Positions 4,331 to 36,996 of a stretch of 64,000 nt of DNA are shown piece after piece (the stretch's first letter is position 1; each line of letters starts with the position of its first letter). The stretch covers positions 91,553 to 155,552 of the forward strand of contig JAHDCC010000008.1 of NCBI GenBank assembly GCA_020630065.1, in the 5' to 3' direction. A program made the translations under genes and the position numbers. The notes under the pieces were generated by a model that had not been told where the DNA came from, ran no database searches, and saw only the letters and a list, made by a program, of their open reading frames with translations. Source of the stretch: Acidimicrobiales bacterium. GTDB taxonomy: Bacteria; Actinomycetota; Acidimicrobiia; Acidimicrobiales; SZUA-35.

Positions 4331-5725
4331 GGACACGCCTTCATCGATAGCTGTTTGGGCTACGGCTTCGGCAACCCGTTGTGGGACCGACATATCAAAA
4401 ACTGACGGCATAATGAAGTCGGCTGAGAGCTGATCTTCGGTAACCGAATCGGCGATGGCGTTGGCGGCGCTGAGTTTCATGCCTTCGGTTATGTCGCTGG
4501 CCATCGTGTCGAGGGCGCCTCGGAAAATTCCGGGAAACGCTAAAACATTGTTGATCTGGTTTGGGTAGTCGCTTCTTCCTGTTGCCACTACCGACGCGAT
4601 GCCGGCTACTTTTTCTGGCTTGATTTCCGGGTCGGGGTTTGCCATCGCGAAAATAATCGGATCTGGAGCCATTGATTTGACGTCTTCGGTTTCAAGGAGG
4701 TCTGGTCCGCTGAGCCCGATGAAGACGTCGGCTCCTCGAAGTATCTCTTTTAGTGTGCCGGATCGTTTATCGGGGTTGGTATGGTCAGCAAACCATTGTT
4801 TACCGGCCGTCAAGTTTTCTTGTCCGCTATGGACGGCGCCTTTTCGGTCCGCTCCGATAATCTGGCCTGCTCCGGCTTGGGCCAGCATTTTTCCGACAGC
4901 GACACCGGCTGCGCCCAGTCCAGACATGACGATGGAAACGTCTGCTATGTCTTTGTCGATCACTTTGAGAGCGTTGCGTAGCCCGGCGAGGGTGACGACT
5001 GCGGTGCCGTGTTGGTCGTCGTGGAAGATCGGAATGTCGAGTCGTCGTTTTAGTTCGGCTTCGATTTCGAACGCTCCGGGAGCCTTGATGTCTTCTAGGT
5101 TGATTCCTCCGAATGTTGGGGCTAGCCGGACGACAGTTTCGATTACTTCTTCGGGGCTTTGAACGTCGAGGCAGATCGGGAAGGCGTCGACGCCGGCGAA
5201 CTCTTTGAACAGTAGTGCTTTGCCTTCCATCACCGGCATTGCCGCTTTGGGGCCGATGTCGCCCAGTCCAAGAACGGCCGTTCCGTCGCTGACGATGGCG
5301 ACGGTGTTTTTTCGTATCGTGTGGGTGTCGGCCACCGACGGGTCTTTGTGGATTGCTTTGCATACTCGGGCCACGCCAGGCGAGTAGGCCATCGATAGGT
5401 CGTCGGAGTCGCCGACTGGGCACAGCGACAGAACTTCGATCTTGCCGCCTTCATGCATTCGGAAGGTTCGGTCGTAGTGGTCGAGGAGTTGTACACCGTC
5501 TACTTCGGCGACCACTTTCGCCATTTCACTCATGTGTTCTTCGTCGCGGCAGTTGACGACGATATCTCGTTCTAGTGTTGGGCCTTTAGCCACGAACCCT
5601 TCGATGGCGAAAATATTGCCGCCAGCTTCACCTACAGCTGAGGCCAGGTTGCCGAGAACACCAGGCACATTATCTAGCTGAAGTCGTAGGTTTAACGAGT
5701 ACTGGGCAAAGGTCTGTGCTTTCAT
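4316..5725 (-). CDS. NAD(P)-dependent malic enzyme with N-terminal ACT domain
   Basis: ACT-like N-terminus ([24 protein letters not shown]); '[31 protein letters not shown]', '[13 protein letters not shown]', 'ANPDPEI'. Confidence 0.95.
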
Positions 5726-23278: not shown

Positions 23279-24826
23279 CTAACCAATATCGACGCAATTT
23301 ATTTGAGGTGGTTCCTCGCCGGTGAAACCGACCGATACAACAAGTTCTCCTTCATTAGCCGAGTCGATTGCGACATGGTAGGTTTGCGGGTCGCTTTGAA
23401 CGATCTGGGTCACGCTAAACGAACCGAATTCGTCTTGGATCGCAGGGCCTTGTTCAGCTACTTCGTCGCCGTTGGCGAACTCGTCAGAGATGCTGGTTTC
23501 GGCAAACTCTCGCCACGAAGGCTCGTCGCCGTCGGCCAGTAGTTCGAAGAACGCCGCCAGTGTCTGTTCGCTCGGGCTGTCACCGAATTCGTCAAGTGTC
23601 GTGAACGTCTCGATCTGTGCGTCATCGAACTGGCTGAATTGGCAGAGGCTTGGTACGTCGGTGAACTCGTCGGTGTCCAAAACGATATTGGCCAGATCGT
23701 AGGCCACCGTCTCGAAGTCGAGTTGCCCGTCGTTTGTGGCTGTAAAGATCATCACGTCCTCTTCGACGAATCGAAGAAAGTCAGCGAAGAAAACGCCGTT
23801 GCCGCCGTTGTGGGTTATCAGCGTGCCTGCCGATTCGGTTGGCACTATCGCCCATCCGTATCCAGAGGCGATCTCGCCGGATTCTTCTTCGATTATGTGA
23901 GGTTCGAAAAGTTTCTCTTTCGCTTCTTCGTCGAGAATTTCGTTGCCGTTGAGGGCTTCATGCCACAGCAGCATGTCTTCGGCTGACGAGAGAATCCCGC
24001 CGTTGCCTCGCAAATACCAGTATGGGCCGTCTTCAGCCCACGGGAGTTCGTTAGGGCGGGCGAATGTGGTGTTATTGATGGCGCCTTCGTAGCCGACGGC
24101 GATTACCGAGTCGCCCCAGTCGGGTAGCACATACCCGGTTAGGTTCATGCCAGCCGGGGTGAACAGTGCTTCGTTTAGGTACGCCTCGTAGGAGTCTTGG
24201 GTGACTCGTTCGATGGTGGCTGCTAGCAGACTGTATCCGGAGTTGGAGTAGGCGTATGTTTCTCCCGGAGTGGTTTTGAGTGGCTCGAGTTCGGCGACGA
24301 ATGTGGGCAGATCTATGTCGTCGTAGTCCAATCCGTCGCCATCTCGGATGCCGGAGGAATGAGTGAGTAGGTGGTGCAGGGTCACGTCTTCGTAGCCATC
24401 GGGTAGTTCGTCGACGTAGTTGGTGATGGGGTCCTCAACGGTGAGAAGGCCGTCCATTTCTAGTCGAAGGATTCCGGCAGCCGTGAACTGTTTCGTAATC
24501 GAACCTATGTCAAATATGGTGTCCGCAGTGTTGACGGTTTCGGTGTCGCGGTCGGCTAACCCAAACCCTTTCGAGATCGTTTCATCCCCGTTTTGGATGA
24601 GGACTGTTCCGTCAAAGCCTCGTTCTTCGAGGTCGGCGAAGTAGGCGTCGAGGGAAACCGGTTGTTCTTCGGTAGGTGTGGGTGTTTCCGAAGTGGGCGA
24701 GACAGTGCTTTCTGACGTCGTTGGAGGGGCGACGTCGACATCTCCATTAGGCGAGCACGCGCTGGCTAGAAGTCCGAGGCAAACAGCCGAGGCGGCGAGC
24801 TTGTAGTTCATTATCTGTCCTTTCAA
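23279..24826 (-). CDS. serine hydrolase / beta-lactamase class C-like lipoprotein
   Basis: Lipobox (LLASACSPN); 'FDIGSITKQFTAAGILRLEMDG', 'LLTHSSGIRDG', 'YSNSGY'. Confidence 0.93.
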   Translation of the reverse strand: MKGQIMNYKLAASAVCLGLLASACSPNGDVDVAPPTTSESTVSPTSETPTPTEEQPVSLDAYFADLEERGFDGTVLIQNGDETISKGFGLADRDTETVNTADTIFDIGSITKQFTAAGILRLEMDGLLTVEDPITNYVDELPDGYEDVTLHHLLTHSSGIRDGDGLDYDDIDLPTFVAELEPLKTTPGETYAYSNSGYSLLAATIERVTQDSYEAYLNEALFTPAGMNLTGYVLPDWGDSVIAVGYEGAINNTTFARPNELPWAEDGPYWYLRGNGGILSSAEDMLLWHEALNGNEILDEEAKEKLFEPHIIEEESGEIASGYGWAIVPTESAGTLITHNGGNGVFFADFLRFVEEDVMIFTATNDGQLDFETVAYDLANIVLDTDEFTDVPSLCQFSQFDDAQIETFTTLDEFGDSPSEQTLAAFFELLADGDEPSWREFAETSISDEFANGDEVAEQGPAIQDEFGSFSVTQIVQSDPQTYHVAIDSANEGELVVSVGFTGEEPPQINCVDIG

Positions 24827-24956
24827 AGGGGTGAGGTTTGAAGGTACGTCAACGGGTGTTAACCGGTTGTGAACGAGGACCGGATGTTTGTCCGGTCTGA
24901 CTCCGAATATAAATATTGGGCGTGAGGTGTCGGCGCTGAGCTAGCGTGGAAGTTCT

Positions 24957-26225
24957 GTGGCTACTACTCGTGTGACAATTCCGAAGCCTATATATCTGCT
25001 TTTTGTTGTTCAGTTCTTGACGATGGCGGCGAGTGTGGGTTTGACGACCATGCTCGGCAAACAGGTGTTTGACATCACGGGTCGCGAACTTGATCTTGGT
25101 TTGTTAGGTCTAGCCGAGTTTCTTCCCACCCTGGTGTTGGCGCCGCTGGGTGGGACGTTATCGGACAGGTTCGACCGGCGTTACCTTATTCTGGTTGGGC
25201 TTTTAGTCAATGCTTTAGCGGCGGTTGTTCTTGCGGTTTACGCCTCGACTGACCCGACAGCGGTCGGACCAATTTTTGGGTTGGTCGCCATGTTGGGTGC
25301 GGGGCAGGGGTTGTTGTTCGGTTCGATGCGGGCGTTGCCTGCCGACATGTCGCCGCCGGGTGTGCTTTCTCGGGTGATGGCGTTGCGTTCGGCGTCGTGG
25401 CAAAGCGGTGTGATTGTCGGCCCGGTCGTAGGCGGGTTTTTGTATGTGATTGCGGTTCCTGTTCCGTTGACGGTGGCGGCGGTCGTGTTGGCGTTCGCCG
25501 CCGGGTTGACCATTTTGTTGCCTCGTTCAACTATCGCTAAAACCGACGATGTTCTTGGTCCGAAGGCGATGATCGTCAGCGCCTATGAGGGGGCGAAGTT
25601 TATTCGTCGGACGCCGTTGCTGTACGGGGCCATCACGCTGGACTTGTTCGCGGTGTTGTTGGGTGGGGCGGTGGCTTTGCTGCCTGCTATCGCCGAGGAA
25701 CGGCTTGGTGTTGGTGCGGTCGGGTTGGGGTGGATGCGGGCGGCTGTTGGGATTGGGGCGGCTGTGATGACGTTAGTTATTGCGTGGAAACCGATTGAGC
25801 GTCGTATTGGTGTGGTTTTGTTGTGGGCAGTTGCGGTGTTTGGGGTGGCGACGGTGGGTCTGGGTTTGACTCGTAGTTATGCGGTGGCGATTGGGTTGCT
25901 GGTTTTGATGTCGGCGGCGGACGCGATCAGTGTGTTTATTCGTTCAACGATTGTTCCGTTGGCGACGCCGGAATCTATGCGGGGTCGGGTTTTGTCGGTT
26001 GAGACCGTTTTTATTGGAGCGTCGAACGAGCTTGGTGCGTTCCAGTCGGGGGTGGCGGGCGCGATTCTTGGTGTGAGCGGCGCTGTCATCTTTGGTGGTG
26101 TCGGGACACTGGTGGTGGTCGGTTTATGGGCGGCGCTGTTTCCGCATTTACGTAACGCAGACCGGTTTAGCGACATTGTGGCGTCGGCGGGCAAGGCTGC
26201 GAGCCGGGACGCGTCAACCGCGTAG
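24957..26225 (+). CDS. MFS transporter
   Basis: 12-TM pattern, 'LGGTLSDRFDRRYLILVGLL'. Confidence 0.9.
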   Translation: MATTRVTIPKPIYLLFVVQFLTMAASVGLTTMLGKQVFDITGRELDLGLLGLAEFLPTLVLAPLGGTLSDRFDRRYLILVGLLVNALAAVVLAVYASTDPTAVGPIFGLVAMLGAGQGLLFGSMRALPADMSPPGVLSRVMALRSASWQSGVIVGPVVGGFLYVIAVPVPLTVAAVVLAFAAGLTILLPRSTIAKTDDVLGPKAMIVSAYEGAKFIRRTPLLYGAITLDLFAVLLGGAVALLPAIAEERLGVGAVGLGWMRAAVGIGAAVMTLVIAWKPIERRIGVVLLWAVAVFGVATVGLGLTRSYAVAIGLLVLMSAADAISVFIRSTIVPLATPESMRGRVLSVETVFIGASNELGAFQSGVAGAILGVSGAVIFGGVGTLVVVGLWAALFPHLRNADRFSDIVASAGKAASRDASTA

Positions 26226-26243
26226 TTGGCTTGGCCTTCGTTG

Positions 26244-26816
26244 TTAGGGTTGGGCGATGCCGGGCCATACAGCGTCGACGATACGTCGAGCGTCGGCCGG
26301 TTTCATTGGTAGATGGCCGATCAGTAGGCGTAGCCAGAGTGGTCCGTAGATGGCGTCGAGTACGACTTCGTGGTCGATGTCGGAGCGGATTTGGCCTAGT
26401 TCGATTCCTCGTTGCAGTCTGGCTTGGGATAGGTCTCGTCGAGGTTGCCAGAAGCGGTTGCGGAACTCTTCGGCGATGGTTTCGTCGGCGTGTGATTCGG
26501 CGATGAGTTCTCGGATGATTTTGCCGGTGGGGGAGTTGAATAGACGGATGACGCCACGAAGGTGGCCTTCGAAATCGGATTGAAGGTTGTCTGTTTCTTT
26601 GAAGGGTGTGGCTTTCATCGTGCCGTGTACTAACGCGTCGAGTAATACGGCGGTTCGTGATGGCCACCAGCGGTAGATGGTTTGTTTAGCTACTTCGCCG
26701 GCGGCGGCGATTTCGTTGATGGTGACTTTGCCGGGGCTGTTGGCTCCGACGAGTTCGAATGTGGCGTCGAGAATTCTGATGCGGGCTTCTTCGTCTCGGG
26801 TGCGTCCTCTGGGCAT
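26244..26816 (-). CDS. TetR family transcriptional regulator
   Basis: 'RIRILDATFELVGANSPGKVTINEIAAAGEVAKQTIYRWWPSRTAVLLDAL'. Confidence 0.95.
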   Translation of the reverse strand: MPRGRTRDEEARIRILDATFELVGANSPGKVTINEIAAAGEVAKQTIYRWWPSRTAVLLDALVHGTMKATPFKETDNLQSDFEGHLRGVIRLFNSPTGKIIRELIAESHADETIAEEFRNRFWQPRRDLSQARLQRGIELGQIRSDIDHEVVLDAIYGPLWLRLLIGHLPMKPADARRIVDAVWPGIAQP

Positions 26817-26842
26817 GGTTTGAGTGTATGGGGCGTTCGGCT

Positions 26843-26866
26843 TAAATACGAGACTTCTAGTATTTA
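26843..26866. promoter_or_regulatory. palindromic operator 1: TAAATACgAGActTCTaGTATTTA
   Basis: 24-bp near-perfect dyad between the divergent TetR and YceI genes. Confidence 0.65.
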
Positions 26867-26887
26867 TAGACTCTCGGTATTGTTATT

Positions 26888-26911
26888 TATAAACAAGACT
26901 TGTAGTCTACT
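26888..26911. promoter_or_regulatory. related operator 2: TATAAACAAGACTTGTAGTCTACT
   Basis: 16/24 identity with operator 1, shared core ACnAGACTTnTAGTnT; ends 5 bp before the yceI ATG. Confidence 0.55.
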
Positions 26912-26915
26912 TATT

Positions 26916-27479
26916 ATGACTACGACAACCCCTTCACTCCCACTCGCCCCCGGCACCTGGACCCTAGACCCAGTGCACTGCACCGTCGAATTCACCGCCC
27001 GACACATGGCAATCTCAAAAGTTCGCGGCCGGTTCCACCACTTCGACGCCACCGTACAAATCGGCGAAAGTCTCGAAACCAGCCAAGTGAAAGCCACCGT
27101 CGACCTAAGCTCAGTCGACACCAACAACACAGACCGAGACAATCACCTCCGAAACTCCGATTTCTTCAACGTCGAACAAAACCCTCAAATGACGTTCACG
27201 TCAACCCAGATAACCGACGTCGGCGACGGCAACTACCAGATGGTCGGCGACCTAACCATCGGCTCGGTCACAGCGTCAGAAACATTTGACCTCACCTTCA
27301 ACGGCACCGAAACGTTCCCCGGCGACGGATCGTTCCACGCCGGGTTCGAAGCGACCGCCACCATCAACCGAAACGACTACGGCGTCGACTTTAACGTCCC
27401 GCTCGGCGCCGGAGGCTTCGTCATATCCGACAAAATCGGCATCGAACTCGACATCCAACTCCTCGCCCCACAGGGATAA
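26916..27479 (+). CDS. YceI family protein
   Basis: 'GTWTLDPVHCTVEFTARHMAISKVRGRFHHFDATVQIG'; start set at 26916, the longer ORF runs into the TetR gene. Confidence 0.94.
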   Translation: MTTTTPSLPLAPGTWTLDPVHCTVEFTARHMAISKVRGRFHHFDATVQIGESLETSQVKATVDLSSVDTNNTDRDNHLRNSDFFNVEQNPQMTFTSTQITDVGDGNYQMVGDLTIGSVTASETFDLTFNGTETFPGDGSFHAGFEATATINRNDYGVDFNVPLGAGGFVISDKIGIELDIQLLAPQG

Positions 27480-27482
27480 CTA

Positions 27483-28364
27483 ATGACATCTAAACAAACA
27501 ATCACCGTACTCGGCGCCGGTGCGATGGGGTCACGCCTCGCCATCAACTACGCAGCAGCCGGGCATCCGGTAACGGTATGGAACCGAACCGCAGACCGGG
27601 CAAACACGCTCGCCCAAAACCATGACGTCACCGCTCAAGAAAGCCTGCACGAAGCGCTATCACAAGCCGACATTGTCGTGTCGATGCTGGCCGACGACGA
27701 CGCAGCCACCTCGGTCTGGCTCGACCCGATGCTAGGTTCACTGGCGGCACTAAAACCCGACGCAGTGTGGATCGAATCCTCGACCCTGACCACAACGACA
27801 GTCAAAAAACTGTTCGATGCGGCAACCACCGCAGGCGTCGATTTTCTCGAAGCGCCAGTCGTCGGGACGCTACCCCAAGTCGAATCAGGATCACTGTTCT
27901 ATCTGCTCGGAGGCGGCCCCGAACTTTGTGAACGGATGCAGCCAGTCATCGACGTAAACGCCGGAGCGGTCAAACGAATGGGAACCCCCGGCTCAGCCGC
28001 CGTCATGAAACTGGCCATCAACGGACTGTTGGCGATCCAGGTCGCGGCCTATGCCGAAATCGTTGGGCTGCTCGACCAAAGCGATCTTGATACCGGCGAA
28101 TCAATCGAACTTTTAGCGAAGCTTCCTATCACGGCACCAAAGATCGGTGGCGTGTTAACCAAGTTTGCGGAACGATCATTCGAACCGAACTTCCCGGTCA
28201 GGCTGGTAGCGAAAGACCTCGACTATCTCGGCCGGTTGGCGGAGGGCTTCAACGCAGCCAACCCGGTAGGGGAAGTAACCGCCGACCTTTATAAACAAGC
28301 TATTGCTGCCGGTCTGGGCGAGCTGGACATTTCAGGCATTGCATCGGTTTACTTGGCGGACTAA
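27483..28364 (+). CDS. NAD(P)-dependent oxidoreductase, 3-hydroxyisobutyrate dehydrogenase-like
   Basis: 'VLGAGAMGSRLAINYAAAGHPVTVWNRTADRA', 'FLEAPVVGTLPQVESGSLFYLLGG'. Confidence 0.93.
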   Translation: MTSKQTITVLGAGAMGSRLAINYAAAGHPVTVWNRTADRANTLAQNHDVTAQESLHEALSQADIVVSMLADDDAATSVWLDPMLGSLAALKPDAVWIESSTLTTTTVKKLFDAATTAGVDFLEAPVVGTLPQVESGSLFYLLGGGPELCERMQPVIDVNAGAVKRMGTPGSAAVMKLAINGLLAIQVAAYAEIVGLLDQSDLDTGESIELLAKLPITAPKIGGVLTKFAERSFEPNFPVRLVAKDLDYLGRLAEGFNAANPVGEVTADLYKQAIAAGLGELDISGIASVYLAD

Positions 28365-28628
28365 ACCTAGCGGGGGCTGTCAACGACGTCGACGAATCGC
28401 CCGGAGAGCCAGGTTCGTGCGGGGTAGCGTTTTGTCTGATCGTAACGGTGGGGCGGCGTTGGAGGTTGCAGAGGCGACCGCTGGGTGTGCCTGCCGTTGA
28501 CGGTTTTGGGTGGGGTTTCGGAGGGTCTATCTTTTCACCTATGTATCGGGTGGAGGTTTCTCGGCTAATGGTGTTGGTTGATGACATCGAACGTGGCAGA
28601 ATCAATAAGCCCGTTTCGGGTAGGTTAC

Positions 28629-28701
28629 GCCTCCTTAGCTCAGTCGGTAGAGCGCTTCCATGGTAAGGAAGAGGTCAACAGTTCAATTCTGTTAGGAGGC
28701 T
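28629..28701 (+). tRNA. tRNA-Thr (GGT)
   Basis: GCCTCCT/AGGAGGC acceptor, anticodon stem CTTCC-ATGGTAA-GGAAG, TTCAATTC T loop. Confidence 0.97.
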
Positions 28702-28702
28702 C
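28679..28702 (+). repeat. direct repeat copy 1 (tRNA-Thr 3' end): cagttcaattctgttaggaggctc, putative att
   Basis: 24-bp exact match to 29444..29467. Confidence 0.9.
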
Positions 28703-29443
28703 TGCATAACACCTGGTAGAAGCCTTTTGCTAGGTTCCCAGGATTCGTTAGGGCGTCTGGCTTAGCCAAAGTTCTAGCCATCGAAAGAGAGCTAAGACTC
28801 CGTATGCGAATCAAGAACCGCTTCGAATTGATTGATGCAGGTGGTTTCAGGGAGACGGCTGAATGTCGGTCGGCTATCCAAGAGCTCTTTATTATCTCCC
28901 ATATGGGAAGGTCCAAGTCTCTAAGCCTTCTTCAAGAACTAAGCTTTTCTAGCATGGCGGTTAACTTCTTGGAGTAGATTTTTTCTTTTTGAACGACGCC
29001 TTCGATGCGTGATAGGTCCGCATGCTCGGAAGTAGGGTTTGGTTCGTAGTAGATACCCTTTTCTTGCGTGGGACGAGATCTTCTTGGTACTCAAAAAGTC
29101 GATTGTAGAGTCTTGGCGAAATTCCAACGAAGGGGGTGAAGGTTACTTTATTGGACTCCTCGTTTTCTATGGAAACTGAATCGTCAAACAATTGATCTGC
29201 GAGGCTTTTGGGGAATGGCTGCATATATACAACTCGTTTGATACCTGCTCCAACGATCATCGGGGTACATTCATGGCAAGGGAATGTCGTCACAGTCAAT
29301 TGTTTGTCTTGAGTTGAGACCCCACGTCTAGCAGCGTCGGTTAGTGCACTTTGTTCTGCATGCATTGAGCGAGAGAACTCGGGCACTACTTTTTTGGCTG
29401 CTGGGAGCATAGTAAATAAGAGGTCGGCAACTCTTTGAGATTG
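28703..29443. mobile_element. putative remnant of a tRNA-Thr-integrated element carrying a truncated AvcD-like deaminase
   Basis: Bounded by the 24-bp tRNA 3'-end direct repeat; no integrase remains. Confidence 0.55.
28804..28977 (+). CDS. hypothetical small ORF inside the tRNA-Thr-flanked segment
   Basis: Open frame MRIKNRFELIDAGGFRETAECRSAIQELFIISHMGRSKSLSLLQELSFSSMAVNFLE; convergent with the deaminase fragment. Confidence 0.25.
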   Translation: MRIKNRFELIDAGGFRETAECRSAIQELFIISHMGRSKSLSLLQELSFSSMAVNFLE

Positions 29444-29524
29444 CAGTTCAATTCTGTTAGGAGGCTCCACGAATCCCACGTCAGAGACAGTCGCTCTCGC
29501 CGACTCAACCGACCAAACCTCCAC
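28961..29524 (-). pseudogene. truncated AvcD-like anti-phage dCTP deaminase (C-terminal deaminase domain only)
   Basis: 'MHAEQSALTDAARRGVSTQDKQLTVTTFPCHECTPMIVGAGIKRVVYMQPFPKSLADQLFDDSV...VTFTPFVGISPRLYNRLFE'; HAE and PCxxC zinc motifs; no N-terminal NTPase domain; ORF start lies outside the second repeat. Confidence 0.75.
29444..29467 (+). repeat. direct repeat copy 2 of tRNA-Thr 3' end, putative att
   Basis: cagttcaattctgttaggaggctc, identical to 28679..28702. Confidence 0.9.
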
Positions 29525-29596
29525 TGCTTGCGTGAGGGTCGTTTAATTCATTTAATGGTTCTAAAGGTTCGATGTGTCCTGTAGAGTGGCGTTCGT

Positions 29597-30127
29597 ATGG
29601 CGATGGCGTATATCGATGAGTCGCACCGTTCGGGTAAGTATCTGATCTCGGCGGTAGTCACGCTGGAAAGTAGACAACCTCAGCTTCGTGCTGATTTACG
29701 ACGGTTGATCTTGCCAGGCCAGCAGCGGGTTCATTTTGTGAATGAATCAGACCGCAGGAAAAAGCAGATTTTGGACGTAGCGGCTGAGTCCTCAGTGAAG
29801 AACGAGATGTGGACAGCTACCGGGTTCAAACAGAACGCGGCGCGTATCGCAATTTTTGAGGCGATGATTCCGCTGCTCGTTCGGGATGGAGTCGACCGTT
29901 TCATTGTGGAGTCGGGCGGAGCGCAGGACAAGAAAGATAGGGCTGTTCTGGCGGGTACGTTGCGGACACATGGGCTTAGCGCTGCTTACCGCCATGCCCG
30001 ACCACAGGAAGAACCGTTACTGTGGCTGCCGGATGCATTAGCGTGGTGTTTCGGGCGGAACAAACAATGGCGAAGCGAACTGTATCGGCGTGGGTTGGTC
30101 GCTAGCCACCAAAGAATCAGAGCCTAA
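29597..30127 (+). CDS. DUF3800-like protein
   Basis: 'AYIDESHRSGKYLISAVVTLE...QQRVHFVNESDRRKKQILD...FIVESGG...WLPDALAWCFGR'. Confidence 0.65.
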   Translation: MAMAYIDESHRSGKYLISAVVTLESRQPQLRADLRRLILPGQQRVHFVNESDRRKKQILDVAAESSVKNEMWTATGFKQNAARIAIFEAMIPLLVRDGVDRFIVESGGAQDKKDRAVLAGTLRTHGLSAAYRHARPQEEPLLWLPDALAWCFGRNKQWRSELYRRGLVASHQRIRA

Positions 30128-30378
30128 AAAGCGCTAATCCTGACCTCAAACCGTCCGGAGAGGGGTCAGGACCACTTCAGGTAGCTATTGCCCCTGCTCT
30201 TTAAGTATCGCCGGTAAAACGGAAAATGTAAACCCCTTAAAATCGAGTAGGGGATGTTCACGACTTCTTGGAGCATCTGGCTGTTTGTTCTGATCCGGCG
30301 GTTCTAACATGTGTACCAGCGCTACTAGTGCATTCTACGAACGCCTGGAAAGGGCGCTGGCTTGAATAGTCTTGAGCT

Positions 30379-30723
30379 ATGGCTGACAAGATTATTCCGA
30401 TATTCAGGGTTAAGGATGGCGAGAAAACAGCGGAGTGGTACCAGCGTTTAGGTTTCGAAGTTGTGAGTGAGCACAGGTTCGCTCCAGGGATGCCGCTTTA
30501 TCTCTTTCTTGAACGCAACGGCGAAGAGTTGCATCTGTCGGAACACAAAGGCGATGCCAAAGGGCCTGGCCTTATCTACTTTTGGATTGAAGAGGGCTTG
30601 GAGACGATCGCTGAAGAGTTTGGCGCAAGTATTGAGCAGCAGCCGTGGGCGAAAGAGCTAAAGATGAAAGACCCTGACGGCAATCGACTCAGAATAGCGT
30701 TGCGGCACTCAGGCGCGGAATGA
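30379..30723 (+). CDS. VOC family / bleomycin resistance-like protein
   Basis: 'PIFRVKDGEKTAEWYQRLGFEVVSEHRF...LSEHKGDAKG...MKDPDGNRLRIAL'. Confidence 0.9.
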   Translation: MADKIIPIFRVKDGEKTAEWYQRLGFEVVSEHRFAPGMPLYLFLERNGEELHLSEHKGDAKGPGLIYFWIEEGLETIAEEFGASIEQQPWAKELKMKDPDGNRLRIALRHSGAE

Positions 30724-30869
30724 ACAAACGAAGGTCTAAGAAGGAAACATCCGGACACCGCTATGCCAGTTGTCCCTGACTAAGTTATGTCCTGACCCAT
30801 GGTTCAGTTCGTAGAATTCGAAACCCGGTTTCTTTAGATCGTTCAGAGCTGATTCAACAACATCGCTGT

Positions 30870-32278
30870 TTACCCAAGTGTCGTCCCCAAAGCTTGCAGC
30901 AGGCTCAGTAACGCCAAGAGTGCAAGAAGTGCAAATACGATTATGTGAAAGCGTCTCATAGTGGGCTTTGCTGAGGCGTCCACCGGTGACGTTTCAATGC
31001 GTGACTCGAGCCCGAACACGAGCAGCTGGCCTTCTTCGTATGGCATCTTGTCGTGGCCGGAGATGTGAAGTCGTTCAAGGCCAGGTCGACGGTTTTGGTC
31101 GGTGGCTATCTCGGTCACTTCGGGGGCGTCGCATCCTGGGTTGTTTCGGATATTTAGAGTTTGGATTCGGTCGTGTTGAGATAGTGTTCGCAGTAAGGAA
31201 GGCATCCTGTCCGCTTCGATGTGGTTGCCTGCGAGGTCAAGGCGGACGAGGTTGTGAAGATGGCGGGCGATTGCGGCTGCCCCGCTGCCGCCGATTTGGT
31301 TGTACTCCAGATCTAGATCTGTGAGCAGGTTGAGCTGTTCGGCGATTTCGGTTGCCCCGATGTTTCCGATCATGTTGTAGCCAAGGTCGAGTTCGGCAAG
31401 GTTGTGGAGGTTAGATGCAATGGCTGCTGCTCCGTCATCTCTGATCGGGTTGTGCGCCATGTTTAGTTTGGTGAGGTTGTGGAGGTTGCTTTCGAAGGAT
31501 CGTGTCCCATCATCTCCAATGTTGTTGTCGCTGAGATCTAGAGTTTTGAGTTGAGGTAACCCTTCAGCGATAGCGTTTGCCCCTTCGTTCCCGATGTGGT
31601 TGTAGTGGAGGTTGAGCTCTTCGAGGTTGTTAAGGTTGCTGGCAATCGCTGCAGCGCCGTGATGTCCGTCGTGGGTTTCGGTGAGGTCGAGTTGACTAGC
31701 CCAGTTAGTTGTTCAGCGAGTTCGACTACGCCAGCGCTCTCGATCTCGTTGCGGCCCAGGTCGAGGCTAGTGAGCTTGTGGAGGTTGTTGGCGATAGCTG
31801 CTGCACCCTCGTATCCGATGTCGTTGTACTCCAGGTGTAGGCTGGTGAGAGATGAAAGGTTATTGGCGATCGCCTGTGTGCCTTGGTCGCCTATGTTGTT
31901 GTATCGCAGTTCGAGTTCGGACAAGTTGGGGTTGCGTGCGATTGTTGCCGCACCGTCTGGTCCGATGTTGTTATAGCTGAGGTTGAGTGCGGTTAGTTGT
32001 GGGAATCTTTCAGCAATCACCTCAGCGCTGTACTCTCCAATGTTTAGACCGACCAACGCGAGCCTTTTGACGTGGTTGATGCCCGCCATTTGAACCAGAT
32101 CATCGACGGCAAGACGATCTACACAAAAACAATGTGTGAACGTGCTTTGAAGCTGTCGTGAGCGGAACCCTCTATAAGAAGTCGAACTGAGAATAGCGAT
32201 GGAGTCTGCTGGGCCGAACTCGTAGGAAACCTCTTTCAGCGAAGAGATTTTTGGTATCGACAGTTCGGCTTCTGGCAT
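30870..32278 (-). pseudogene. leucine-rich repeat (RI-type) protein with C-terminal TM helix, split by a 1-bp frameshift near 31692
   Basis: ORFs 31538..32278 and 30870..31460 plus the intervening -1/+1 frame all encode continuous LRRs (GAAAIAxNLxxLxxLDLxYNxIGxx). Confidence 0.8.
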
Positions 32279-32402
32279 GTTCGCAATCGTAGTTCTTGCA
32301 GCGCCATCACTTGGTTAATCGCAAGAGTTGAGACACGCCGAGCGGGGGTAGTAGCTTTGTTGATTTGTTGTTCAAGTCTCACAACCGCGACTTTTACACA
32401 GT

Positions 32403-32426
32403 CTTGACGTGTCATGATACGTCAAG
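32403..32426. promoter_or_regulatory. palindrome CTTGACGTGTCATGATACGTCAAG upstream of the TA operon
   Basis: 8-bp perfect arms plus central TCATGA dyad; overlaps the ORF-track ATG at 32414. Confidence 0.65.
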
Positions 32427-32446
32427 ATATGTTGTTGGATATGGAA

Positions 32447-32653
32447 ATGGTTAAGTTCAGCTCAAAGATTGAAAAGCAGAACCTCGACGACCTGCGTGCG
32501 TATGCTTCTGAGTCGAAGAAGAACATTTCTATTGTTCTTAACGAGGCAGTAGCCGAATATCTGGCATCAGTCAGAGTGCGTCCCACGTTCATCGAAGCGT
32601 CATCAGAAGTGCTTGATGAGCACGCTGAACTTCTAGACAAGCTCGCTCAATAG
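32447..32653 (+). CDS. putative antitoxin of a Doc-type toxin-antitoxin module
   Basis: Small RHH-like protein 'MVKFSSKIEKQNLDDLRAYASESKKNISIVLNEAVAEYLASV' directly upstream of doc; start is one of several ATGs between 32414 and 32447. Confidence 0.75.
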   Translation: MVKFSSKIEKQNLDDLRAYASESKKNISIVLNEAVAEYLASVRVRPTFIEASSEVLDEHAELLDKLAQ

Positions 32654-32657
32654 AAGC

Positions 32658-33047
32658 GTGGAAACGACTACATACCCAACGGTCGAAGAAGCCCTCTACC
32701 TGCATAAGGCTTTGATTGACCGGTTCGGCGGTGCGCACGGTGTGCGAGATAAAGGCTTGCTAGAAAGTGCGCTCATGCGTCCACGCTCTGGCTACTACGA
32801 AACCCTGTCACTTCAAGCAGCCGCACTACTGCATAGCCTTATCCTAAACCATTGTTTCGTGGACGGTAACAAACGAATCGGGTTCGCCTTAATGGCGACA
32901 TTCCTAAAACTCAATGGTGATTCAATAGTCGTCGACGCTACCACCGCCGAGCGTTTCATTATCGACGACATCATTGTCGGAAAAAAAGACGTTGCTGATA
33001 TAGCCGCATGGATAGAACTACACCTTCATGGACAGTCGAAGCGCTAG
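32658..33047 (+). CDS. doc: Doc/Fic-family toxin
   Basis: 'HCFVDGNKRIGFALMATFLKLNG' Fic/Doc motif; 129 aa; GTG start. Confidence 0.93.
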   Translation: METTTYPTVEEALYLHKALIDRFGGAHGVRDKGLLESALMRPRSGYYETLSLQAAALLHSLILNHCFVDGNKRIGFALMATFLKLNGDSIVVDATTAERFIIDDIIVGKKDVADIAAWIELHLHGQSKR

Positions 33048-33188
33048 ACGACCCAGCTAGTCTTCATCGAATCTCAGCCGCGATTGGGCCTGAAAATCAG
33101 CCACCCATCAAGATCGTTCAAAACCTAGATCGAGTCTAAATCACGCTGATCAGCGCAGCTCGACTCGCCCCCTTCGTGGGATGACGCG

Positions 33189-33788
33189 CTATGTTTTCGA
33201 TCGGGTTCCGGTCTTGATCTTCTCGACCGAGGACCACACCTGTTCGGTCAGCTCTACCAGGTCCTTCGTAGGGTCTTGAAGCCATAGATAGAATGCGCCG
33301 TCGGTTCCTCCGACCAGGGCTCCAGCCATCACCGAACCTCGCAAAGCGCCAGCCACATCGCCATCCTCAACGTTCTCGGTAAGCAGCGACCGGTGAGCCT
33401 CGAGCCAGGCTCGGTTTAACGCGGCCTCAGTCGGCCGCATCGACGGTATGCTAGCCATAAATTTGAACGCGACCTCGATGCGGGCGCGGTCTGACTGAAT
33501 AAACCGCGCCACGTCTATGATCGAACGACGGCAGACATCAAAGTCCGACTCTGAAGGGTCTCTCAGGTCGATCAACTTCAGGTAATGGGCCAGCCACTGT
33601 CGGGGGATTTCATAGGCGATTTCGTCTTTGCTGTGAAAGTGTCGGTACACGGTTCGACGAGAAACATCGGCCGCGTCGGCGATCTGTGACACGCTGGTCT
33701 TTGAGAAACCTTGTTTTAAAAAAAGCGACGCTGCAGCCTCGTAAATTTCCGCCCGTGTCTGCTCGTTCCGTCTGTCTTGTAATGTCAC
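33189..33788 (-). CDS. TetR family transcriptional regulator
   Basis: 'EIYEAAASLFLKQGFSKTSVSQIADAADVSRRTVYRHFHSKDEIAYEI'. Confidence 0.95.
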   Translation of the reverse strand: MTLQDRRNEQTRAEIYEAAASLFLKQGFSKTSVSQIADAADVSRRTVYRHFHSKDEIAYEIPRQWLAHYLKLIDLRDPSESDFDVCRRSIIDVARFIQSDRARIEVAFKFMASIPSMRPTEAALNRAWLEAHRSLLTENVEDGDVAGALRGSVMAGALVGGTDGAFYLWLQDPTKDLVELTEQVWSSVEKIKTGTRSKT

Positions 33789-33913
33789 GATGACCTCTCC
33801 TCAAAGCACATACTGCACATTGTGCCATTCTGGCGCAGTGTTTCCTGGGTCTCCTTGTCCAGGTTACGATGGCACCAGTGTCCGAGAAGAACCGAAAGAA
33901 CGAGGGATAGGGA

Positions 33914-34345
33914 ATGAATCACCGACGATGGGTCCAAATCGCATTGGGGTACCTGGCAATTTCATCGGCGCCGCTCGGCATCTGGGGGCTCCTCGCTCCC
34001 CAGTCATTCTACGAGAATTTCCCCGGACTTGGGCGAGCATGGATTGCCCTGGACGGCCCCTACAACGAACACCTCATGCGCGACGTCGGCGCCTTGAATC
34101 TGGCCCTGATCGTACTGTTCGTGGGCGCCGCCATCTCAGTATCAAAACCCCTCGTGCTAACCGCGTGCGCCTCATCGTTAGCGTGGGGAATCCCCCACTT
34201 CCTCTACCACGTCTTTAACACCGACGGCCTGAGTAACGGCGACATCGCTGGGGTTCTCGGTGGACTTTCAGCCTTCGTCGCCCTGCCAATAGTCATAATC
34301 GTGGTTATGAACCGAAACGACATATCCCAGCCAGCCCTCGCGTAG
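33914..34345 (+). CDS. hypothetical membrane protein (about 4 TM)
   Basis: Divergent from TetR; hydrophobic segments 'GALNLALIVLFVGAAI', 'LGGLSAFVALPIVIIVVM'. Confidence 0.75.
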   Translation: MNHRRWVQIALGYLAISSAPLGIWGLLAPQSFYENFPGLGRAWIALDGPYNEHLMRDVGALNLALIVLFVGAAISVSKPLVLTACASSLAWGIPHFLYHVFNTDGLSNGDIAGVLGGLSAFVALPIVIIVVMNRNDISQPALA

Positions 34346-34566
34346 GTACATACGTCTACCAATGGATCAACTCACAGGACCCACGTCACGGTGACAACTA
34401 CCTGATTCGAGATAAGGGCATGGATGCGGTACCAGTATCGGCGCAACGCTAGATGTGGTCGGCTTTGGATCACAGATAGTAGGACTGAACTGACCGGTGT
34501 CGCCGTCGAAGGACAAGGCAAGCGGAGTCTGAACTCCGAAGACGACACCGGAAACCTATCTACCTG

Positions 34567-36996
34567 CTAAACCAGGTCTTCAACGCCGGCCTCTTCAGCC
34601 AACTCCACGATCTCATCGTCAGAAGGAGCTGGAGCCAACGACCCGGCATAGTCGATTGCCGGAAGCTCATCCACACACGATGTGTCGAGCACCGCGGTCG
34701 GGTTCTCAACAAACTCGGCGGCGATCGAAGCCGGGCACCCGTCGTTTAAGGCAACCACGTGACCTACCTGTTCAAACTCGACCAGCGTCGAATTGGGCAA
34801 CGTTTCCGCCGCCTTACGGCTCCACTCCGGCCACGTCTGGAAATCGGTGTCACTAGCCAAAACCAGTGACGGAATGTCGCTTGTTACCGGCTCGGTCACG
34901 ATCGGGTCTTCAGCCGCAACATCCCAAATGTCACACGTTGGGAAGAAATCGATGGTTGCTGCGTCCAACAATTCGGGAGACCAAACCGTGTCAGATGTTC
35001 GGGTGATCGCCGAGTTGTCCCGATACGGGAACTCTTCCGCACAGGTCACCGATAAATAGAAGCCGTCAGAGAAGAATGCGGCCACACTCGGCAAGCCTCG
35101 CTGCTCATAGGACCTTCTGCCTCGGGCGTCGGTTGGTGCCGCTTCCAGTTCTAAACCGAGAACGGTCTGAGCAAAGTTCTCAGCAGTAGCTGCCCGAACC
35201 GCCGGATCATTCGAGGCTAGCCCGTTGATCCACGCCGGTAGCGACGGGTTAGCTTCTTCGAAGATAAACATCAGTGAGAGAATGTTGATGTTTAATCCGC
35301 CGTCACCAAAAACGATCTCGGCGTTCTCTACCCCAAACGGAATAGGGTCCTGGGTTACGTTCGCTGCTGCGGCGTTAATGTCTGCCGCTAAGTTCGGGAA
35401 CGCGGCACCACAGTCGGCGTCAGCGAGACACCGTGCGACGATTTCGTCTAGGTTGTTTTGGTAGCTGATGGAATTGTCTTTTCCAGCGGATATTTCGGGC
35501 TGGAAAACGGAGTCCAAAATGGCGCTGTTGACACCTTCTGGGTAGTCACGCATTACGCTCAACGCCAGATCGGTACCGTAAGATCCGCCGAACAGGTTCC
35601 ATGTATCTACCCCTAGCCCTTGGCGAAGGTCGTCGATGTCGGCTGCGTTTTCAACTGTCGTGTAGGCCGACAAGTCAATGTTTTGGTCTACGAGTCGGTT
35701 CTTGCACTGTTGAACTTCTTGTCGGACAAGCTCTAAAATTTCTTCTTCGGTTGGTGGCTCCTCCAGAGGTTCTGAACTCTCATCAGATTCTTCGATTTCC
35801 TCATCTACGGTTTCATCGTCTTCGTCACCTGAGTCTTCAATCGCTGGGGTCGCAGATTCTTCGACTGAGTCTTCAATTGCTGGAGCCGCAGGTTCGTCGT
35901 CATTGTCCGAGTCGTCATTGCCCGATTCGTCGCTCTCCGGAGTTGCGGACTCGTCAACAGGATCGCTGACCGGAACCACGGCGCTTTCGTCAACCGGTTC
36001 TGTATCACCGCTGCCGTCATCGGAATCAGGGTCGGTAACTTCTTCAAACGGTGGTTCCTCGATAACCAAATCTTCGAGACGCACACACGTCAACGACGGC
36101 TGCGAAAACCCGGTACCTCGCTGATCAACATATACCACGTCACGTCCACCAGAGATTTCGTCGAACGCCAACTCCTGTAAAACCCCGCTAGCGGTAAGAG
36201 GCGCACCGCCCGGACCACCCTCCAAATAAACAACAGGTTCACCCACCGGTTGTTCACCAGGAACAACACCGAACGCAACGTTGATCAAACGAGAATTCGG
36301 GTTAGATCGTTCCTCAGGGACAGCCATAAACCCGCACCGCATATTCGGAGCGAACGCGAAGTCTTCGTTGCTGCACGTCAAAAACCGCACCAAATCAGAT
36401 GGTGGGCTATCGTCGGAAACCGGGTCAATATTCAGACATCGAACCCGAAGCTTATTCGGAGAAGTCCCGTCACCGGCATGAACGATCTGAACCCCATATG
36501 CCGGGGCGCTCAGCTCAATACTTGGTTGAGCGAACGGTGCCCGAGTAGCGGTATCTGGTAGATCGGGAGTCGGCGATGTCTCGCCAACCGTCTCACCCTC
36601 TTTATCGACGAAACGTACAGCCACCCGTTCGCCGGTCTCGGTCAGAGTAGAGGTCCCATCCAACGAATCCTTCCGATGAGAGCGGTCTTTCGTGACGCCG
36701 CTCACCAGCACAGTCCCGGCCGGAATTGGTTCATCCAACTCCAAAATGTTGGTGGCGCCAACAGCCCGACGTTTATTCACCTTGCCCCAACGAACCTTGG
36801 ACGGTTTCTTATCTGAACCTTCAGCGTCGATAATGTTTGTGCGTCTAAAGTCTTCGATATCGCATTGAGTCGCCGGTTCAGTTTCGGTAGGCGGGGGCGC
36901 CGCCGTACTTGGAGTGGAAGACAAACCGATTGAGAGTGCGGCGAATGGGGCGGCGGCAAGAGCGGCCCGCAACCTTCGCCAAGTGTTTGACTGCAT
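34567..36996 (-). CDS. secreted alpha/beta hydrolase (TAP/tripeptidyl aminopeptidase-like) with long acidic insert
   Basis: 'VVYLEGGPGGAPL', 'VYVDQRGTGFSQPSL', 'WNLFGGSYGTDLALSVMRDYP', 'GHVVALNDGCP'; D/E/S-rich stretch of about 110 aa. Confidence 0.88.
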   Translation of the reverse strand: MQSNTWRRLRAALAAAPFAALSIGLSSTPSTAAPPPTETEPATQCDIEDFRRTNIIDAEGSDKKPSKVRWGKVNKRRAVGATNILELDEPIPAGTVLVSGVTKDRSHRKDSLDGTSTLTETGERVAVRFVDKEGETVGETSPTPDLPDTATRAPFAQPSIELSAPAYGVQIVHAGDGTSPNKLRVRCLNIDPVSDDSPPSDLVRFLTCSNEDFAFAPNMRCGFMAVPEERSNPNSRLINVAFGVVPGEQPVGEPVVYLEGGPGGAPLTASGVLQELAFDEISGGRDVVYVDQRGTGFSQPSLTCVRLEDLVIEEPPFEEVTDPDSDDGSGDTEPVDESAVVPVSDPVDESATPESDESGNDDSDNDDEPAAPAIEDSVEESATPAIEDSGDEDDETVDEEIEESDESSEPLEEPPTEEEILELVRQEVQQCKNRLVDQNIDLSAYTTVENAADIDDLRQGLGVDTWNLFGGSYGTDLALSVMRDYPEGVNSAILDSVFQPEISAGKDNSISYQNNLDEIVARCLADADCGAAFPNLAADINAAAANVTQDPIPFGVENAEIVFGDGGLNINILSLMFIFEEANPSLPAWINGLASNDPAVRAATAENFAQTVLGLELEAAPTDARGRRSYEQRGLPSVAAFFSDGFYLSVTCAEEFPYRDNSAITRTSDTVWSPELLDAATIDFFPTCDIWDVAAEDPIVTEPVTSDIPSLVLASDTDFQTWPEWSRKAAETLPNSTLVEFEQVGHVVALNDGCPASIAAEFVENPTAVLDTSCVDELPAIDYAGSLAPAPSDDEIVELAEEAGVEDLV

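Follow-up and report, generated by a model that had tools for sequence, protein, structure and literature searches.

Cis-mobilizable elements of the CIME and microCIME classes measure 1.2-13 kb when they carry cargo or 130-220 bp when they contain no genes (PMC7563491). The additive flexible genomic islands of Ca. Methylopumilus are marked by repeats of a tRNA-Lys end, with reported sizes between 330 bp and 42 kb and contents of 1-63 genes (PMC10872708), and among the tandem islands linked to ssrA in Dehalococcoides 15 lack an integration module (PMC3146451). In the collection of papers that was searched, none connected Ilumatobacter with tRNA islands. Here, we analysed a stretch of 64,000 nucleotides from an Acidimicrobiales bacterium (referred to as the window), in which a tRNA-Thr gene is followed by a short unit that we consider likely to be a decayed, integrase-less att-flanked unit of the CIME/additive-island type, lying at a recurrent anticodon-loop hotspot of tyrosine recombinases. 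The features of the locus are:

28629..28702, plus strand: tRNA-Thr (GGT), intact (ARAGORN; Rfam tRNA 67.7 bits)
28659..28702, plus strand: left att copy, the tRNA 3' half from the anticodon loop, CATGGTAAGG...GGAGGCTC
28712..28742, plus strand: left-end hairpin CCTGGTAGAAGCCTTTTGCTAGGTTCCCAGG (-11.7 kcal/mol for the 45-nt stretch)
28760..28779, plus strand: candidate integrase arm site GCTTAGCCAAAGTTCTAGCC, pattern GCTTAGCCAAA..TCTAGCC
28961..29407, minus strand: gene for an anti-phage dCTP deaminase (AvcD type), 3' fragment
29408..29467, plus strand: right att copy, a tRNA 3' half that differs by 3 substitutions and by an 18-nt segment within the variable region
29426..29443, plus strand: the 18-nt segment GGCAACTCTTTGAGATTG, in place of the tRNA's AA and foldable as a small hairpin
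29476..29483, plus strand: CCACGTCA, directly after the right att copy, one mismatch from CC(A/T)GGTCA

An earlier note on this DNA had reported an exact 24-bp direct repeat at the 3' end of the tRNA-Thr gene. Both copies are present at the positions it gave (28679-28702 and 29444-29467), the 741 bp between them were counted correctly, and in shuffled sequences a second copy never appeared, even with 3 mismatches allowed. The further copies it proposed to look for do not occur in the window: the 24-mer is found only twice, and a profile of the 46-nt 3' half adds no third att copy. The right copy is a 60-nt version of the complete 3' half of the tRNA, beginning at the anticodon loop (E 8.8e-7 against the tRNA-Thr 3'-half profile), in which 15/18 bases of 29408-29425 match the tRNA from the anticodon loop and the 24 identical bases form the end. 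As it is longer than the 24-mer, the unit between the full copies shrinks to 28703-29407, i.e. 705 bp. The repeat begins in the anticodon loop, a classic site of tyrosine integrases, and leaves the tRNA intact, as in tRNA islands of these enzymes; the 3' end of the tRNA gene is presumably a reconstituted one. When the flanks of the window were joined at att, tRNA-Thr was still predicted, with a longer variable region. The GC content of the unit is about 46-47% (46.8%) vs 54.5% for the window, and the low GC is confined to the unit. An assembly artefact that fused two copies of a repeat might be suspected in an assembly of 81 contigs, where tRNA repeats can break or misjoin contigs, but the 705-bp insert is single-copy, the right att copy is distinguished by its 18-nt segment as well as by three substitutions, and the contig runs on for tens of kb on both sides, so that we regard such a fusion as scarcely credible.

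The unit contains one gene fragment and neither integrase nor transfer genes. The fragment comprises the last ~149 codons of the deaminase gene and is cut exactly at the right att boundary; the homology reaches to a few codons from this boundary, and a 187-aa reading frame is the frame of the fragment extended through att. It aligns with positions 328-434 of the 437 positions of NF041025 (E 2.5e-38) and with the PADLOC dCTPase model (E 6.3e-42), and the Pfam deaminase domain is matched from its middle onward. With 132 bits vs the curated NF041025 cut-off of 400 bits it is classed as a fragment and not as a member of this family. The HAE and PCxxC zinc motifs are kept, the N-terminal domain is missing and so is the first half of the deaminase domain, and full-length relatives mostly have ~500-650 aa. 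Judged by its sequence, it most likely has no activity. We also considered a split deaminase whose N-terminal part is encoded elsewhere and rejected it, since no such counterpart was found in the genome. Close relatives above ~56% identity were found neither in the genome collection nor in the viral collection. That the fragment ends just at the att boundary points to recombination of the att core with a position in the deaminase gene, or to a deletion that has its endpoint there.

The ends of the unit recur on a contig with an integrase. On G004:C37, which is binned with a relative, tRNA-Thr halves occur three times. A 128-bp stretch across the first att copy and the left end of this contig matches the window at 79%, and the last att copy takes the same 60-nt form with an identical 18-nt segment, which occurs nowhere else in 398 genomes of the order. 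The left-end hairpin follows the first att in both sequences with compensatory changes, and the pattern GCTTAGCCAAA..TCTAGCC occurs without mismatch once in the window, three times on G004:C37 and nowhere else in 39 family genomes. Between the att copies of G004:C37 lie a Phage_integrase gene, a HEPN/Toprim protein and a candidate defence protein; the tyrosine integrase is split over two reading frames, and no relaxase or conjugation gene was identified on the contig. G004:C37 may be misbinned in G004, since its anticodon stem matches the tRNA of the window's genome and not the other tRNA-Thr of G004, and its tetranucleotide usage resembles that of the window more than the usage of G004's own contig does (0.73 vs 0.33). 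Misbinned or not, the shared ends show that those of the window unit belong to an integrase element. A search of viral contigs with the 27-nt insertion-bearing pattern and the 42-nt half revealed none with the att of the window; one viral contig with the arm-like motif was discarded as probably a chance match, having no tRNA half nearby.

The absence of an integrase from the locus, pointed out earlier, extends to the whole contig: all three Phage_integrase genes of the genome are on other contigs. One of the three is the tyrosine integrase of a 10.7-kb element (L162, G000:C78, 10-10751), which also carries an FtsK-like gene and is bounded by two 46-bp tRNA-Ala 3' halves, with no complete tRNA found on its contig. 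The one island-type integrase of the genome thus sits in a tRNA-Ala-bounded element and not at tRNA-Thr, which counts against the reading that we prefer. The attL/attR integration scar proposed in the earlier note is supported by the layout, the low-GC insert, the foreign gene fragment cut at att and the ends shared with the integrase-bearing contig.

Conservation of the 765-bp arrangement across the clade, named beforehand as the observation that would speak against a scar, was sought in 60 relatives and found in none; these belong to other genera, the genus of the window being represented by its genome alone. Some relatives (e.g. L031 and L028) have a single tRNA-Thr copy with flanking genes that are not syntenic with the window, and for 14 window proteins (23279-36996) no synteny beside tRNA-Thr was detected in relatives. 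Tandem tRNA-Thr halves, at least two per contig, were present in eight family genomes including that of the window, with spacers of 0.70-5.2 kb, and several of these contigs contain integrase genes or fragments. The starts of the extra halves fall a few bases at most from a single point of the anticodon loop, upstream of which the sequences are unrelated. This shared starting point, a classic site of tyrosine integrases, argues together with the foreign genes enclosed by the relatives' copies and the ends that the window has in common with the integrase-bearing contig against a second copy that is a mere tRNA fragment, created by duplication or rearrangement without any role of an integrase. 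Duplication can yield tRNA fragments and the right copy is partly decayed, but on balance we hold this origin to be very unlikely.

Other tRNA genes show similar layouts. L165 (G230:C63) has three tandem 45-47 bp tRNA-Gly-like 3' halves at 5182, 6097 and 9449, and L167 (G004:C73) has three tRNA-Ile-like 3'-half copies at 1, 5128 and 5236, one of them 35 bp long; two of these lie 108 bp apart, and an integrase fragment is found between the outer copies. Apparently, tRNA-Gly and tRNA-Ile also carry tandem att-flanked units in the family. At 8674-8937 of L025 (G009:C12) a FAD_binding_3 gene fragment ends at an att copy. It is the second gene cut at an att boundary besides the deaminase of the window and possibly reflects insertion at a secondary site similar to the core in the anticodon loop.

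The arrays of the relatives include units as short as that of the window. In L022 (G033:C75, 7275-9801) tRNA-Thr is followed by three tandem sub-kilobase units of 834, 710 and 781 bp, which are split by tRNA-Thr 3' halves and encode Unstab_antitox/ParE, an unnamed pair and RHH/MazF, respectively; the tandem units of L025 measure 704 and 883 bp and those of L086 738 and 866 bp. The unnamed two-gene module of L022 (8264-8796) has a toxin-antitoxin-like layout; neither gene has a Pfam or PHROG match, and PADLOC gave no match for the larger gene. Relatives of this larger, toxin-like gene were found in L025, L086 and L040, and its copies lie beside different tRNA halves, namely Thr, Gly (L165) and Lys-like (L118).

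These units raise the question whether the window contains a functional mini-cassette, i.e. one of a set of att-flanked toxin-antitoxin or defence units that are inserted and excised singly by an integrase acting in trans, in integron-like arrays anchored at tRNA genes. Tandem units of 0.70-0.88 kb with intact two-gene modules in L022, L025 and L086 would fit such a scheme, as would the recurrence of the unnamed toxin-like gene across genomes beside different tRNA halves. Against it, the gene in the window unit is truncated, the majority of MazF relatives in the family have no att flanks, and there is no sign that units are excised, that a dedicated integrase exists or that cassettes change their order within a species, in genomes that are mostly fragmented assemblies; we therefore judge it to be unlikely. 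As most MazF relatives are not att-flanked, the link concerns these loci rather than the toxin family itself. An integron cassette array proper was rejected: no array of the intI type was found, the sites are tRNA 3' halves in place of folded attC sites and the window lacks an integrase, and the recombinases near the arrays of the relatives match Phage_integrase. We also give little credence to a broader version, in which tRNA 3' halves would serve the family as integron-like cassette sites. Sub-kilobase toxin-antitoxin and defence cassettes would be inserted and removed singly by an in-trans integrase at several different tRNA genes, and the window unit would be such a cassette with a trapped gene fragment. 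The earlier note had left the choice between a deletion remnant and a very small cassette. The truncated deaminase gene favours the decayed remnant, while the small units with intact genes in relatives leave some probability for a captured mini-cassette.

The window may hold traces of another unit. The motif CC(A/T)GGTCA follows 13/45 att copies vs 1.6 expected (random positions in the same loci), mostly at a constant offset of ~9 nt from the copy. The right copy of the window is trailed by the one-mismatch version given above, which suggests that a further, older unit may once have followed beyond the right att. Just right of this att a 176-aa ORF (29597-30127) appears DUF3800-like by eye and has no Pfam, NCBIfam, PADLOC or PHROG match; it could be content of this older unit. 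About 3 kb beyond the right att, an Arc-like/RHH gene is followed by a Doc-like (Fic) toxin gene (32414-33047), a probable toxin-antitoxin pair.

If the window unit is a decayed att-flanked unit, as we favour, a tyrosine-recombinase element would have integrated at the anticodon loop of tRNA-Thr, its own 3' half restoring the tRNA and the second copy being displaced to the far side. The simplest account would be that elements specific for the anticodon loop integrated repeatedly at one tRNA and that their integrase genes were then lost. The 705-bp unit itself probably arose when an att core recombined with a position within the deaminase gene, or else through a deletion in a larger island. Such a unit would not be self-mobile; if its att sites are functional, it could be moved only by the integrase of a related element, provided in trans or by a related element landing adjacent to it. 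The locus is a compact case of tRNA-anchored island decay and accretion. The toxin-antitoxin mini-cassettes of the relatives are the more interesting part, as their arrays make it testable whether addiction modules retain short units and whether units move singly.

Compared with the systems described above, the window unit fits, as far as sequence comparison reaches, a known kind of element, the integrase-less att-flanked islands represented by CIMEs, ssrA arrays and additive islands. Like CIMEs and microCIMEs it has att copies on both sides, here derived from the target gene, it is devoid of recombinase and transfer genes, and it belongs to a tandem setting with integrase-bearing elements (PMC7563491). 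In contrast to them, it falls between the two size classes with 0.7 kb and a gene fragment, it occupies an acidimicrobial tRNA-Thr site, and a conjugative parent is not indicated. With the islands of Ca. Methylopumilus it shares recurring tRNA-end repeats (PMC10872708), but the repeat is here a 44-nt 3' half from the anticodon loop, and the relatives carry toxin-antitoxin and defence cargo. The Dehalococcoides islands are likewise tandem and bounded by the 3' end of an RNA gene (PMC3146451), with a serine recombinase and a tmRNA gene there and a tyrosine recombinase and a tRNA here. The gene content resembles the AvcD-type anti-phage deaminase (NF041025; PMC10511110) in its C-terminal part with the zinc motifs and differs from it in being a presumably inactive fragment, without the N-terminal domain and with only half of the deaminase domain.
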